Below, one piece after another: positions 17,083-26,461 of a stretch of DNA of 46,348 bases; position 1 is the first letter of the stretch; every line of letters begins with the position of its first letter. The stretch spans positions 1-46,348 of IMG/VR virus record IMGVR_UViG_3300029989_001049; one strand, 5' to 3'. A model generated the notes under the pieces. That model made no database searches. It was not told the DNA's origin and saw nothing but the letters and a program-made list of their open reading frames with translations. This DNA comes from a virus. Both the position numbers and the translations under genes were made by a program.

Positions 17083-17610
17083 TCAAGTGCCCAGCAAGCC
17101 TGCCATGAAGTCGTTGATCTCGTCCTGCAGGTCCTGCGCGTCTTCGGCGCCCAGCGTTCCGCGTTCGGGGTCTCCCGTCAGCAGGCCACGGCGCGGCATG
17201 TAGGGCTTGTCGTTCCGCTCGGTCCCAGTCTCGTGATAGATCGCATAGGGCCTGCCGAAACCCCATTCAGCCCAGGTATCGCCGCTGTTGGGCGAGAGGC
17301 TTTGCATCATGAGATTGGTCCGCTGCAGCAGCGAGCCAGGCATAGGCGGGATGATGGTCTCGCCATCAGCGCCCACCTTTGCCGTCTTGTGTACCGATGC
17401 ATAGATCATCGGCGTCAGCTCGCTGATCTGCGGCCAGGGCTGGCCGTTCGGATCGCGCTTGCTGCTGAAGCGCAGATTGACGTTGCGAACCTCAATGGCC
17501 GCGATGTTCTGCATCAGCTCGGACGGCCGCGCCAGGCCGGCAATGGCCACGTCAAGCTGCGCAATCAGCGCGCTGTCGCCGTCCAGCTCAATGACAAGAC
17601 GGTCGGTCAT
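17083..17610 (-). CDS. G: Virion morphogenesis protein (Mu gpG-like)
   Basis: The 175-residue protein has the Mu gpG signature: an amino-terminal regulatory helix, then FSSKRDPNGQPWPQIS and SLLQRTNLMMQSLSP, GFGRPYAIYHETGTERND and KPYMPRRGLLTGD. The YAIYHETGT and MPRRxxLG motifs are conserved in the family. Mu gpG is a minor head component needed for joining. It follows gene F after a 129-bp structured gap and ends 2 bp before the protease promoter dyad. Confidence 0.92.
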   Translation of the reverse strand: MTDRLVIELDGDSALIAQLDVAIAGLARPSELMQNIAAIEVRNVNLRFSSKRDPNGQPWPQISELTPMIYASVHKTAKVGADGETIIPPMPGSLLQRTNLMMQSLSPNSGDTWAEWGFGRPYAIYHETGTERNDKPYMPRRGLLTGDPERGTLGAEDAQDLQDEINDFMAGLLGT

Positions 17611-17626
17611 GGCCTAAACTCAGCCC

Positions 17627-17734
17627 GTGTTGGTTGTGAAGTCCTGGAATGTCGCGACAGGACGGGTGGTGTCTGACAGCTTTGCTCCCTCGGTCCACCG
17701 TATGCCGGCGATTCGCGCACCGGCCAACCAACAC
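17627..17734 (-). ncRNA. Structured RNA candidate between genes F and G
   Basis: A perfect 10-bp outer stem pairs GTGTTGGTTG with CAACCAACAC (17627-17636 with 17725-17734). Inside are GTCCTG/CAGGAC (17641-17646 with 17658-17663), a G-rich/C-rich stem with one bulge (about 17664-17669 with 17695-17700), and GCCGG/CCGGC (17704-17708 with 17720-17724) directly stacked on the outer stem. On the minus strand the last extends by a U:G and a G:C pair. The result is a four-way-junction RNA. It could control F/G translation or packaging, or be an independent noncoding RNA. No ORF of note lies in the gap. Confidence 0.6.
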
Positions 17735-17739
17735 CTCGC

Positions 17740-19092
17740 TCATACACGCCCCCAGATCAACTGGTACCGGCTTCTGTCCTGCAGCGCGTTTGGATCGATC
17801 ACCGTCACAGTGCGCACCAGGTTCAGCGGCACAGAGGTTTTCACATCCTCCAGCCGCATGCGTACCCGGTATTCCAGGCTGATGACCAGCTTGGCCACCG
17901 TGCCATCCTCGGCCACCAGGTCAACGACATAAAGCAGTGCCGGCGGCGTGGTGCTTGAGTCCAGGAGCACCGCATGCGCGCGCTGTAGCAGCTCCGGCAA
18001 GCGCCTGTAGACGCTGATGGCCACCTTGGCGCCGATATCCTTGGCATCGCGAAACGTATGCAGCACATCCTCATCGCGAACTGCAACGACCGGGCTGGCC
18101 AGCTCGATGTTTTGGATCTGCAACGCACGCACCGCCTGCGGGGCCAAGGTGCCAATGTAGCGAATGTCGCCGCGCGCCTGGCCGATGGGCTTGCCCTTTG
18201 CATCGACCAGCTGGTCGACGAACTTGCCAAAGCGCCGCGTGGCGCTGGCCACAAACGCCGGCATATCGGCCTGGGCCTGGGCCAGCGCTGTGGCCGAGGC
18301 GAGAGGCGATGAGCCCAGCGCCTTGCGCAGCGAGGCCTCATAGAGCGCTTCGTCTCGGGCCTTGCCAGGGTTGTATGCAAAGCCTGGGTCAATGCCACGC
18401 GGCACGGGCACCACTTCGCCTGTGCGCGGGTTGACGTAGGTGACCCAGTCAATGGCAGGCGCCTCGGTCTGGATCTTCACGCCAGCCTTGCGCAGCCGGT
18501 CGATACCCTTCTGGTCGATGGCGTAGGCGTAGCAGCGGCAGTTCCAGCCGTTTGGCGGGTAGTGCGTGTCCCAGAACGGGTGGTCCACAGGCAGCACCAG
18601 CGCATTCCAGCGGCGGTGCGAGGCGCGCACATGCTCGTCCTGCATCGTGAAGTACACGAGGAAGGGCAAGCGCGCCTTGGTCTTCTGGGTCTCGGCCCAC
18701 CGGCCTGCGGCATAGGCCTGGCGCACGTTGGTGTCATAGATCAGCTTCAGCCGGCGGTCATCGAATCGGGTGATTCGCGTCTCGCCCGTTGCGGCGTCCT
18801 TGACCTCAATGTCCCCCCACCAGCCCTTGGCCGTGAGCTTGGGCAGGATCGAATCGCGGAAGTCCTTCAAGCTGCCGCCGTTGTTGACGGCCGCTTCGCT
18901 TTCATCGAAGAAAATTTGCAATATGTCCAGGCGCTGCACGCCAGCCACGGCGTAGCCGCGCGAGTGCTCGTCCTGGAACACGTCTTGCCAGGCATAGCTC
19001 GGGGCCAGCAGCCGGCGTGCCTGGAACGCCGCGATCGCGGCCTTGGGTTCGACCAGGCCAACCTTGAGCCCAGCAGGAATGGGGATAGGCAT
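17740..19092 (-). CDS. F: Head morphogenesis protein F with carboxy-terminal nuclease-like domain
   Basis: The 450-residue protein belongs to the Mu F/SPP1 gp7 minor head family. Family motifs include DFRDSILPKLTAKGWWG, YDTNVRQAYAAGRWAETQ, LPFLVYFTMQDEHVRASHRR and FWDTHYPPNGWNCRCYAYAI. After about residue 310 it has an extra domain (RDEDVLHTFRDAKDIGAKVA, then LLYVVDLVAEDGTVAKLVIS and VIDPNALQDRSRYQLIW) resembling the PBECR-type (Barnase-EndoU-ColicinE5/D-RelE fold) domains often fused to such proteins. The start MPIPIPAG at 19090-19092 is preferred over an upstream in-frame start inside the portal gene. It likely sits at the portal vertex and may be injected. Confidence 0.9.
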   Translation of the reverse strand: MPIPIPAGLKVGLVEPKAAIAAFQARRLLAPSYAWQDVFQDEHSRGYAVAGVQRLDILQIFFDESEAAVNNGGSLKDFRDSILPKLTAKGWWGDIEVKDAATGETRITRFDDRRLKLIYDTNVRQAYAAGRWAETQKTKARLPFLVYFTMQDEHVRASHRRWNALVLPVDHPFWDTHYPPNGWNCRCYAYAIDQKGIDRLRKAGVKIQTEAPAIDWVTYVNPRTGEVVPVPRGIDPGFAYNPGKARDEALYEASLRKALGSSPLASATALAQAQADMPAFVASATRRFGKFVDQLVDAKGKPIGQARGDIRYIGTLAPQAVRALQIQNIELASPVVAVRDEDVLHTFRDAKDIGAKVAISVYRRLPELLQRAHAVLLDSSTTPPALLYVVDLVAEDGTVAKLVISLEYRVRMRLEDVKTSVPLNLVRTVTVIDPNALQDRSRYQLIWGRV

Positions 19093-19096
19093 GGCG

Positions 19097-20776
19097 TCAG
19101 CTGTGCTCGCCAGGCAGATCCAGATCCGCCTCACCTGCCAGCCGCCCGATGAAGCTGGCACGCGCCAGGCTTTCACCCAGCGGGCGCGAGTCCATGCGCT
19201 CGATCAGTTGCGGCAGCCGGGCCCGGAAGTCCTCCAGCGACTCGCCGGCATCTGCGGCCGCATTCAGCGCCTGCACCAGCGGGTCAATCATCGGCGCCAA
19301 CAGCGGGCGCCAGTCACCCAGCGCATCCGCCACCACATCGTCCAGCATGTCATGCGGGCCCGAGCCGGTGGTTTGAACATCCGTCGGCACTGCGTTCAGC
19401 GCCGTCTTCTTATCCTTTGGGCTCGGCTGTTGTGGCTGCAATTTCGCGGCCGGGCCTGCGGCGGGGTCTGCCACCGGATCGCTGCCAGTCAGCAGATCTT
19501 CGCCCTCGGCCGGCTCCGGGATGCGCAGCTTGTCGTGCACCCACTTCTTGCCGATGCGCAATCCCGCCTTGGCCAGCTTTGGCAGGTTGGTCGCGTAGAG
19601 CTCCAGGTCTTCGGGTTCGCTGGTGTCGAGCTTGAACAGCGGCAGGCGCAGCTTGGCGGCGCCTGGTCGGTTGAGCAGGGCCATTGGCTTGATCAACTGC
19701 TGGCTGACCGTGCCTTCGATCTTGCGCGCATCGGCGTCGCGGATGTCCATGCGCACGCCGTCATGCACCTTGCCCAGCGCCTGCGTGCCATGCTGGCCTT
19801 CGCTGGCGGTCAGCGTCTGGCCGAGGATGGCCTTGGACTCGACGGCATCCAGCCGATCCCACATCGCCACAAAAGGCACCTCGGTGCCGGCAGCAGCAGC
19901 CTCAAATTCCAGCTCCATGCCGGCCGGAATGATGCCCGCTGCGTTGTGCCCGATCTGCACCACAGCCTGCAGCAGGCGGCGCTTCTCTTCATCGCTGGCG
20001 CCGCTCGGATATTTGCCCAGCCGCAATGGCAAGCCGTAGATCTCAAGGAACTCGGCCAGGTCGCGCACCGCATAGTTCTTGAACAGGTACGGCCAGAACA
20101 GCACGCGCGCCAGCGACATGCGCGACACGTAGCCCGCCTTGGCTGGATGCATGTGCATCAGCCAGCTCAGCGGCAGCAGCTCTTCACCCATCACTGATGG
20201 AAGGTCAGCCGTGCCCTCGGTTGCATCGCGGCTGCGCAGCAGCAAGTGCCGCCGGTCGGCGCTGGGGCAGAACCAGCGCTGAGGCTGTGCGGTGAGCTTG
20301 GGGATGCGCACGCCATCGATCAGCTGCCACACCATTTCTTGGGGTGCAAATCCCTTGAGGATGGCGTCGGTCATCGTCCACACCATCAGGTCGATACCGC
20401 CAGTCACGCCATTGGCCTCGACCTGGATCTGGCCGAACCAGGCGCGCATGTCTTCAGCCAAGGCCTTCTCTTCGGCGCTCGCGTTCTCAGGCGCTTCGAT
20501 GCTCCAGCTCAGCTGAGTGAGGGCGCCGCGCCGTTTGCTCATCTCGGCAAACAGATGCCCGTCGCGCTCCTCCATGTCTTCGGCCAGTTCGAGCTGGCCG
20601 ATCAGGTCGCCCATCTCGGCATTGACCATGATGTCGTGCAGCCGCGCCGGCGTGAGGCCGCGTGCCGGATGCCGGTCGAACTCGCGCTGCAGGTAGCCCA
20701 CGCGTGCCGACTGCGGCACGGTGCTGGCCTCCACGTTGAAGGGCTGGCCGTTGGCGTCAAGGATGTTGGAAATCAT
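19097..20776 (-). CDS. Portal protein (Mu gp29-like, DUF935)
   Basis: The 559-residue protein matches DUF935 portals: VGYLQREFDRHPARGLTPAR, ILRDAEMGDLIGQ-like IMVNAEMGDLIGQLEL, HLFAEMSKRRGALTQLSWSI and PAKAGYVSRMSLARVLFWPY. It would form the dodecameric ring for DNA passage and the docking base for terminase and connectors. The start at 20774-20776 (MISNILDANGQPF) is chosen because the longer open frame upstream crosses a structured gap and is not protein-like. The carboxy end is Pro/Gln rich, then helical. Confidence 0.92.
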   Translation of the reverse strand: MISNILDANGQPFNVEASTVPQSARVGYLQREFDRHPARGLTPARLHDIMVNAEMGDLIGQLELAEDMEERDGHLFAEMSKRRGALTQLSWSIEAPENASAEEKALAEDMRAWFGQIQVEANGVTGGIDLMVWTMTDAILKGFAPQEMVWQLIDGVRIPKLTAQPQRWFCPSADRRHLLLRSRDATEGTADLPSVMGEELLPLSWLMHMHPAKAGYVSRMSLARVLFWPYLFKNYAVRDLAEFLEIYGLPLRLGKYPSGASDEEKRRLLQAVVQIGHNAAGIIPAGMELEFEAAAAGTEVPFVAMWDRLDAVESKAILGQTLTASEGQHGTQALGKVHDGVRMDIRDADARKIEGTVSQQLIKPMALLNRPGAAKLRLPLFKLDTSEPEDLELYATNLPKLAKAGLRIGKKWVHDKLRIPEPAEGEDLLTGSDPVADPAAGPAAKLQPQQPSPKDKKTALNAVPTDVQTTGSGPHDMLDDVVADALGDWRPLLAPMIDPLVQALNAAADAGESLEDFRARLPQLIERMDSRPLGESLARASFIGRLAGEADLDLPGEHS

Positions 20777-24262: not shown

Positions 24263-24925
24263 ATGAGCAAATTGGGATCGTTCTTGCATATCAAAACTGG
24301 GCAAGAGCTGAATGTGGAGCTGACTGAGAAGTTGGATGAGCTTCAGACACTTGGCGCCTCCTATGACGCTGGCAAGATTTGGCAAGCGAAATACCTTGCT
24401 GCTGCGGTTTTTCAGCTGATGTCTCATGAAGGGAACGTCCCTATCCTTCAGCAACTCAAGATTCGAAAGACGCTTGCATACGTCGACAGCCGTCATCCAA
24501 TGATGTTCACTAAGTACTCCACCTTTATGGCGCCACTTACTGCCTTCAGAATGGGCGACGGCGACATCAGCGTTGTTCCTATGTGCAGTCTCGCCATCAC
24601 CCCCGACTGGCTGCGCACCGTGAAGTTGAACGATTGGTGGAATGGCGACATCCTCGAAACAAGCCGCGGCAAGCGAATCACCAGGCGGAACTTGATAAAG
24701 CTGGTTCGCAATAAAGACGGTGGAGGTCATTTCGATCCAAAGATTGACGACGCTGACTACCAGGACACCAAAACAGATTTCGACCCACATATCCGCATCT
24801 CGTCCCCCGCTGGGCCGAAGCCTCTGCAGGGTGTGCACCTGGCAACGGTCCGCCAGATTGCATGGGAACTTGAACAGACGCTTATGCCGGTCATTGCCAA
24901 CGGGGTGCCTCTTGGACCTCAGTAG
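24263..24925 (+). CDS. Unknown cargo (moron) gene inserted against the late operon
   Basis: I do not recognise this 220-residue protein. It is on the opposite strand to all neighbours, between the lysis and packaging genes, and has clearly lower GC, which fits a moron expressed from the prophage. The ATG at 24263 follows GGAG by 8 nt; a TTG one codon upstream is less likely. A GATAAT -10-like hexamer is at 24234-24239 without a good -35. The protein is soluble, has FRMGDGDISVVPMCSLAITP and a basic GKRITRRNLIKLVRNKDGGG, and DPKIDDADYQDTKTDFDPHI rich in Asp. Its end overlaps the SGNH gene by 7 nt. A role in superinfection immunity or host change is only a guess. Confidence 0.75.
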   Translation: MSKLGSFLHIKTGQELNVELTEKLDELQTLGASYDAGKIWQAKYLAAAVFQLMSHEGNVPILQQLKIRKTLAYVDSRHPMMFTKYSTFMAPLTAFRMGDGDISVVPMCSLAITPDWLRTVKLNDWWNGDILETSRGKRITRRNLIKLVRNKDGGGHFDPKIDDADYQDTKTDFDPHIRISSPAGPKPLQGVHLATVRQIAWELEQTLMPVIANGVPLGPQ

Positions 24926-26154
24926 CTCATGATGATGTCGGCCAGGTCATAGCCGATCTGGGCATAGCCAGCCTGCGATGGGTGCAGACCATCGCTGTAG
25001 TAGCCCAATGGGCTGCTATAGGCATACGAGACAAACCGCTTTGATTTGTCATACACCAAGCAGCCATATTGATCGGCCACAGCATCGATTGCAGCTCGAT
25101 ACGCATCCATGTTCGCTTGCGTAAGGGTAGCGCTATACCCTATTTGCGAGGGTACTGGTTTGCAAAGGATAACCTCTGCACCCAAGCCAATTAATGTCGA
25201 AACGGTATTGGACAATACCGTTTGATAATTCACATCTGTGGTGCCAAGAGTTAGCAAGCGCCAGTTGTTGATGCCGATGTCGATGAAGACAAGGGAGGGC
25301 ACATCTGTTACCCACCTGCGAACCACCGGACCCAGCAGGAAATCCCCATTAGCACCAGAGCTAACGTCTATATCTGCCGATGAGTATGAGCCAGCTGCAG
25401 CATTAAAGATTTCGATGTGTTTTGTGGCGGCTACGCGGGGAGCTATGCCCACAATCTGTGTGTAGGTGCCAGTATTTACACGTTTGATATTGATGACACC
25501 CGTCGCTGCTGCTGCACCAGTTGGCACGGTAGTGATTCGCAAAGAGCGGCCGAGATTGTTATCCACTGCGGCCAGCTGTGCGCCGCCGATATCAGTTGTG
25601 AAGCTGGCGTATCCACCAAGATTTACGCTGTACAGATCGTAGGAGTCAAATGCGTATGCAGCTGAGGTAGTAGGATCTGTAGGACTGAATTTCAGTGTTT
25701 CCGTCGTGGTGGAATTTGCCATTGCCCATCCACCAACTGTCGAATTAACACCTACAGTGGCCCAGGCCGTTCCAGCAGTCGTCCAACGTGGATCAAATGA
25801 CGTGAGCACCGCGCCACCCTGCCTCGTCTGGTCCCCCCAAACAGAGTTGTAATTGACCGGCAGCCCCATAGCCTTGAGAGCGCGTGCCATCACAGCCGTT
25901 GGGCTAAATGCCCACTTGCTGTTGGCAATCACACTCGAAAGCCCCGCACCCGTGCTATCTCCTAGCTTGATGATCCGAAAATCTGCAATACCAGCGAGCG
26001 CAGCTGCTATTCGCAGCCGTGTTTTTGGGAGTGCTGGCCCGCCCAACAACGATGCGGGCACGCGGACGGCAGACCCAAGCATCCCAGCCCCTGACACCAG
26101 TGCTTTGAGTGCTGCCCGCTCCTTCGCCGACATGCCGCTAAATTTGGACCCCAT
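24919..26154 (-). CDS. SGNH/GDSL-type hydrolase in the lysis module
   Basis: The 411-residue protein carries the SGNH blocks: nucleophile Ser67 in KLGDSTGAG, block III GINN (Asn296) and the catalytic DxxH in DGLHPS (Asp388, His391). Family members hydrolyse esters, often O-acetyl or acyl groups on sugars. A hydrophobic Ala/Leu-rich start (about 15-58) may be an export or virion-binding segment. The gene has lower GC than its neighbours, suggesting recent gain. Lying downstream of the spanin genes, the product could deacetylate cell-wall or capsule sugars to help lysis or adsorption. A longer upstream reading exists, but MGSKFSGMSAKERAA is a better start, just after the preceding stop. Confidence 0.88.
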   Translation of the reverse strand: MGSKFSGMSAKERAALKALVSGAGMLGSAVRVPASLLGGPALPKTRLRIAAALAGIADFRIIKLGDSTGAGLSSVIANSKWAFSPTAVMARALKAMGLPVNYNSVWGDQTRQGGAVLTSFDPRWTTAGTAWATVGVNSTVGGWAMANSTTTETLKFSPTDPTTSAAYAFDSYDLYSVNLGGYASFTTDIGGAQLAAVDNNLGRSLRITTVPTGAAAATGVINIKRVNTGTYTQIVGIAPRVAATKHIEIFNAAAGSYSSADIDVSSGANGDFLLGPVVRRWVTDVPSLVFIDIGINNWRLLTLGTTDVNYQTVLSNTVSTLIGLGAEVILCKPVPSQIGYSATLTQANMDAYRAAIDAVADQYGCLVYDKSKRFVSYAYSSPLGYYSDGLHPSQAGYAQIGYDLADIIMSY

Positions 26155-26155
26155 G

Positions 26156-26461
26156 TCAGGCTCCCTCGCCCAGATGCACCACGAGCGATGTTGCCCCGTC
26201 GCCAATCACTGCAACGTGCGTCGCATTCCCCTTGCCATAGATGCCAATCGACCCCGCAGGGATGCGCAGCCCCGTGGCCTTGGTTACCGTCACGTCAGGG
26301 CCGCCGAACTTGATGAATGAGTCATAGTCCCCACGCCCATCGATCAGTGCGTCGGCGGCCTGGCGCGCCAGGTCGGTTTCGGTGCCCAGCGGCAGCGTGT
26401 TCGCTGCAGTGGTGACCGGGATGGGAATGCCATCTCGCGTGGCCGGAAAGTTCTTGCTCAT
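26156..26461 (-). CDS. Unknown 101-residue protein in lysis operon
   Basis: It overlaps the Rz-like gene by ATGA at 26458-26461 and the next gene begins just after its stop, so it belongs to the operon. The sequence (FPATRDGIPIPVTTAANTLP then ITGRGDYDS-like DGRGDYDSFIKFGGPDVTVT and RIPAGSIGIYGKGNATHVAV) looks like a small beta-rich domain. No family is recognised; a fibre or surface-binding accessory to the SGNH hydrolase is possible. Confidence 0.7.
   Translation of the reverse strand: MSKNFPATRDGIPIPVTTAANTLPLGTETDLARQAADALIDGRGDYDSFIKFGGPDVTVTKATGLRIPAGSIGIYGKGNATHVAVIGDGATSLVVHLGEGA

Follow-up and report, generated by a model that had tools for sequence, protein, structure and literature searches.

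Why should the head genes F and G of a Mu-type phage be separated by a stretch of DNA that can fold into a four-way junction, and from which strand would such an RNA be made? The window analysed here is the whole of an IMG/VR virus record (IMGVR_UViG_3300029989_001049; 46,348 nucleotides), and its Mu-type head genes, encoding gp27-like, terminase, portal, F, G, protease I and major head protein gpT products, lie on the minus strand. Upstream of the head genes, on the same strand, is an ORF with an SGNH/GDSL-type hydrolase domain (24919-26205; PF13472, E 1e-13). The gap between F and G spans positions 17611-17739 and contains the junction. An earlier note, made from the sequence without database searches, had placed the structure between these two genes, and domain matches bear out that assignment. 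The genes and the parts of the structure are as follows.

17083..17610, minus strand: gene G (virion morphogenesis; PF05069), overlapped at its start region by the promoter predicted for the RNA
17627..17734, plus strand: predicted small RNA, a four-way junction opposite to the head operon, with covariation in seven phages and a score of 105.9 bits with covariance model R3, of which the window is a member
17627..17636, plus strand: P1 outer stem, 5ʹ strand, pairing with 17725-17734
17641..17663, plus strand: P4 hairpin, 17641-17646 pairing with 17658-17663
17665..17699, plus strand: P3 hairpin, 17665-17669 pairing with 17695-17699, loop length variable
17704..17724, plus strand: P2 hairpin, 17704-17708 pairing with 17720-17724
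17725..17734, plus strand: P1 outer stem, 3ʹ strand, pairing with 17627-17636
17740..19176, minus strand: gene F (Mu F-like minor head protein; PF04233), with 5 nt between its end and the RNA

The perfect 10-bp outer stem around three hairpins is present as the earlier note described it. Its remark that nearly no bases are unpaired is apt for the junctions (0, 4, 1 and 4 nt) and not for the hairpin loops, which measure 11-25 nt. Likewise, the gap lacks an ORF on the minus strand as stated, whereas the plus strand has an open frame from 17627 to 17932. This frame does not appear to be conserved coding sequence because the homologous RNAs are 91-108 nt long and carry stops in various frames. A small protein gene in the gap was rejected, given that reading frames and lengths differ between members. 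In one relative (L051:3835-4000, plus strand), a short hydrophobic open frame (MKSLVLVAAGFCAGAGHLFPALMFWIIAMSLNAG...) occupies the interval between F and the RNA and runs into the P4 region, where it stops.

Whether the structure is conserved can be judged from homologous gaps. The phage with the nearest F gene (L002, approximately 67% identity) has an outer stem, TCTGCCAG/CTGGCAGA, that differs almost wholly in sequence from that of the window, GTGTTGGTTG/CAACCAACAC, and yet its pairing is kept; the other three stems of this phage also pair. A model built from these two sequences (R1) matched L026 and L027, and then L048, L049 and L051, in every case within the F-G gap. For the resulting set of seven Mu-like phages, the model-fitted alignment has 92.7% of its stem cells paired and 15 pairs changed on both sides, compared with 35-47% and 0-5 pairs when the alignment is slid. 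A structure-blind MAFFT alignment of the same seven sequences gives 89.5% of cells paired and 14 pairs changed on both sides, and RNAalifold recovers the same junction from it without prior structure. Across alignments, 89-94% of cells are paired (35-54% in slid controls), both sides have changed in 13-15 of the 26 pairs, and the covariation score was reached by none of 500 shuffles. On the plus strand, all cells of P1 and P2 are paired (100%), with both sides changed in 7 of 10 and 3 of 5 pairs, respectively. The earlier note had proposed that homologous gaps failing to keep the pairing by compensatory changes would speak against a functional RNA; this comparison has now been made, and its outcome strongly supports one. 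We conclude from these alignments that the four-way junction at 17627-17734 is a real, conserved structured RNA. Kissing of the P2 and P4 loops within one molecule was also considered and rejected, as 4 of 24 permutations were equally good after loops were swapped between members.

The earlier note assumed that this RNA is read from the head-operon (minus) strand and works within the head transcript, and the first of these assumptions is probably wrong. A Watson-Crick pair looks identical from either strand, whereas a wobble pair does not. When the structure-blind alignment is read as head mRNA, A-C mismatches outnumber G-U pairs (9 cells versus 3), whereas on the plus strand G-U pairs outnumber A-C mismatches (9 versus 2), a bias carried by some 6 alignment columns against 3. 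For example, the second pair of P3 on the plus strand is G-U in four members and G-C in three, and in four members it becomes an A-C mismatch on the mRNA strand. Folding energy was dropped as strand evidence: the values are -45.8 kcal/mol for the minus strand (z -2.83, with 1 of 200 shuffles equalling it) and -44.1 kcal/mol for the plus strand (z -1.85), but plus-strand shuffles also fold better, and the z-scores do not separate the strands.

Two further plus-strand features precede the RNA.

17591..17596, plus strand: -35-like hexamer ATGACA, with a spacer of 18 to the next element; weak or absent in most relatives
17615..17620, plus strand: -10-like hexamer TAAACT, found by promoter scan and separated by 6 nt from the start of the RNA

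The consensus promoter scan thus predicts a promoter at 17591-17620 in the window. In each of the seven members of the covariation set, exactly 6 nt separate the end of a TATAAT-like hexamer from the outer stem. The hexamers found in members are TAAACT, TACACT, CATAAT, TAAATT or GATAAT, and one is located at exactly -12 in each of the nine members tested, where the chance of so good a match at a single position is 0.0094. None of 20,000 random-offset draws attained the observed mean of the -10-like match. The fixed spacing strongly suggests that transcription of the RNA would begin at the first base of the outer stem, presumably from a promoter of the sigma-70 type, although the proximity of the conserved -10 stretch to the ribosome-binding site of G, like the weak -35, counts against this reading. 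No intrinsic terminator was found near 17734, where the flanks differ between members.

A plus-strand covariance model built from the seven members, with the -10 columns included (R3), matched three sequences outside its training set: L136, on a Rhizobium lusitanum plasmid (E 1e-6), L138 in genome G737 (E 1e-4) and L158 in genome G1043 (E 5e-5). Each adjoins F on the opposite strand and has a -10-like hexamer with equal spacing, which is not fully independent evidence because R3 contains the -10 columns. The wobble polarity, the constant spacing of the -10-like hexamer and these three matches argue that the RNA is probably read from the plus strand, opposite to the head operon, and make action as part of the head transcript doubtful.

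Beyond these ten members, which we regard as secure, the remaining candidates are likely or possible relatives. A Rhodospira MAG (L014) and L067 score weakly, but each has the complete junction fold and a TATAGT at equal spacing. F-G gaps of 66-141 nt were found in L078, L142, L147, Rhodobacter phage RC1 and Pseudomonas phage B3, and all but B3 carry a -10-like hexamer at the member spacing. B3 is plausibly among the weaker relatives: its P4 hairpin matches that of L138, its stem includes two G-U pairs, and its antisense strand folds at -53.2 kcal/mol compared with -34.6 kcal/mol for the sense strand (z -2.75 versus +0.18). However, B3 does not reach significance with the model, its minimum-energy fold departs from the complete junction, and 11 nt rather than 6 nt separate its TATAGT from the stem. 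The hypothetical B3ORF34 (L128:1381-1479) overlies the candidate antisense RNA and may be no protein gene. One match in genome G768 (L154, E 0.006) was set aside because neither F nor G was recognised nearby. Searching for the exact pattern of the outer stem by itself gave five matches, all unrelated, and a search with the P4-loop pattern returned, beyond members, chance coding matches such as the tail sheath 'VATFQDF' in L013. A covariance-model search of 399 Burkholderiales genomes gave no match, although this search was insensitive, as a later run missed the known G737 site.

In all loci examined, the RNA is located at the F-G junction, and IMG/VR pattern scans of limited sensitivity found it nowhere else. 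Over approximately 70 mapped F-G pairs (duplicates counted), the gap length is bimodal: nearly all gaps measure either -11 to +32 nt or approximately 66-160 nt with the RNA or a likely relative, and two outliers exceed 1 kb. Phages without the RNA usually have overlapping or abutting F and G genes; in phage Mu itself, the two overlap. Among the Beetreviruses, B3 has the gap, but JBD18 and JBD67 do not. On a tree of F, the gapless L053 and L058 are sisters of L048, and the trait needs at least eight changes, or four if the secure members alone are counted. This scattered pattern implies either an old element that has been repeatedly lost or one repeatedly gained at a single site. As a separate observation, the G-I gap of B3 (L128:2068-2257) folds at -75.5 kcal/mol antisense versus -54.6 kcal/mol sense and shares motifs, judged by eye, with that of JBD18 (L131:2700-2917), and so it may hold a second structured antisense RNA. 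In Mu, the strong gyrase site lies within the G-I interval.

What might this RNA do? We propose that these phages encode an independently transcribed small RNA of approximately 95-110 nt. A sigma-70-type promoter would drive its synthesis antisense to the late head operon, its first base would be that of the outer stem, and it would fold as a compact four-way junction. This RNA would be produced while the late operon is silent, during lysogeny or early infection, and its variable hairpin loops could pair with the mirror-image structure of the F-G late message through kissing-loop contacts. Expression at the F-G junction would then be held down until late transcription overruns the small RNA. 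Antisense kissing-loop systems have compensated stems around diverging loops in an RNA that is complementary to its message. Control at the F-G junction is favoured here because the stems are compensated, the P2 and P3 loops diverge and the RNA is complementary to the late message. The transcription, timing and target of the small RNA are what we infer, and its fold, conservation, fixed place, strand bias and -10 spacing are supported by the sequences. The best explanation as a whole, an independent plus-strand antisense RNA that governs F-G through kissing loops, has in our estimation about an even chance of being correct, and the control step considered on its own is favoured at somewhat less than that. 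Translation control of F and G, which the earlier note had suggested, is possible in the form of such antisense control.

Against the antisense reading stand the lack of an identified terminator and the distance of about 16 nt that separates the RNA from the start codon of G. The unpaired junction bases UGR and CGUA also count against it, as they would be unnecessary for simple antisense pairing. Their conservation across distant phages instead argues for a shape-dependent role in trans. The same plus-strand small RNA could be an ‘RNA moron’ that is expressed in lysogeny and parked harmlessly between F and G, with its shape binding a host or phage protein or its loops targeting other mRNAs. 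Its own promoter-like element, its presence in B3 and absence from the close relatives JBD18 and JBD67, and the scattered distribution on the F tree all agree with such a unit. However, a trans-acting unit could sit anywhere, whereas this RNA is found at the F-G junction only, in so far as the limited search outside that site can tell. We hold this possibility tentatively and consider it nearly as likely as antisense control of F-G. A sense-strand element in the late mRNA, setting G translation or mRNA stability at the F-G boundary, would suit the equally foldable minus strand, the location about 16 nt ahead of the G start codon and, for the window, 5 nt beyond the F stop codon, and the fact that the structure stands in place of the usual overlapping stop-start of the two genes. 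We judge it unlikely, given the 9-to-3 excess of A-C mismatches over G-U pairs on that strand, a fixed-spacing -10-like hexamer that it leaves unexplained, and the overlap of the RNA with the end of F in L136.

The compact junction and its conserved unpaired bases could also bring to mind a new self-cleaving ribozyme, particularly given the enrichment of hammerhead and twister ribozymes in the vicinity of Mu-like phage genes (PMC10085705), but the RNA matches no known ribozyme family and no cleavage site is identifiable from the sequence, and so we consider this quite improbable. Still less credible is a degenerate antisense tRNA or tRNA mimic. The plus-strand arms do follow the order of a tRNA, with junctions of 4, 1, 4 and 0 nt, and at the P2 position L142 has a T-arm-like hairpin (GTGGG-TTCAAGT-CCCAC). 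However, no tRNA was predicted by ARAGORN with default settings, permissive thresholds gave no RF00005 match either, and conservation in the P2 (‘T’) loop is among the lowest of the molecule. The motif of L142, a canonical tRNA T-arm sequence that lies in the F-G gap of a G669 prophage (L142:1354-1476, plus strand) and is antisense to both genes, occurs once in its genome.

Taken together, the loci fairly probably define a new family of structured F-G small RNAs with their own promoter, antisense to the head operon. Its carriers would be Mu-like phages of Alphaproteobacteria and of one or more further proteobacterial lineages, plausibly the laboratory phage B3 among them, and the RNA would be an ancient element, lost time and again, that regulates either the switch from lysogeny to late expression or the host. 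If so, a small antisense RNA within the head operon would constitute a new control point in the classic Mu-like group of phages, for which relatives naturally devoid of the RNA offer a comparison. Such an RNA would be missed by gene annotation because annotation looks at the coding strand, and in B3 part of it is annotated as ORF34. No publication describing an RNA in the F-G gap was found in the literature searched.

The Rfam search that the earlier note recommended gave no match of release 15 families to the window, with none in the gap at E values up to 10 or in the relatives at E values up to 5, and the same limits apply to the C4 antisense RNA model (RF01695). OOP RNA of lambda, sar RNA of P22 and CopA/RNAI are short antisense RNAs encoded opposite a phage or plasmid message. 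The F-G RNA resembles them in that stems are kept while loops diverge, and differs from them in being a four-way junction between head genes F and G. The Mu-like gpT downstream element RNA motif (Mu-gpT-DE) is, judged by its name, a structured RNA of the Mu-like head operon. Unlike the F-G RNA, it sits downstream of gpT, and the window has no Rfam match to it. The cloverleaf order of the plus-strand arms recalls tRNAs, but the F-G RNA has no T-loop or D-loop consensus, has a long variable third arm, and is matched by neither ARAGORN nor RF00005. Hammerhead and twister ribozymes are likewise structured RNAs tied to Mu-like phage genes, whereas the F-G RNA matches no known family. The C4 antisense RNA of phages P1 and P7 acts in immunity, combines a conserved scaffold with variable target loops, and is a molecule of approximately 77 nt with three stem-loops that RNase P cuts from a longer transcript (PMC5320573). 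Both C4 and the F-G RNA are small structured phage RNAs, with an antisense function in C4 and a proposed one in the F-G RNA, but the latter is enclosed by a stem and carries a promoter-like element at its 5ʹ end.
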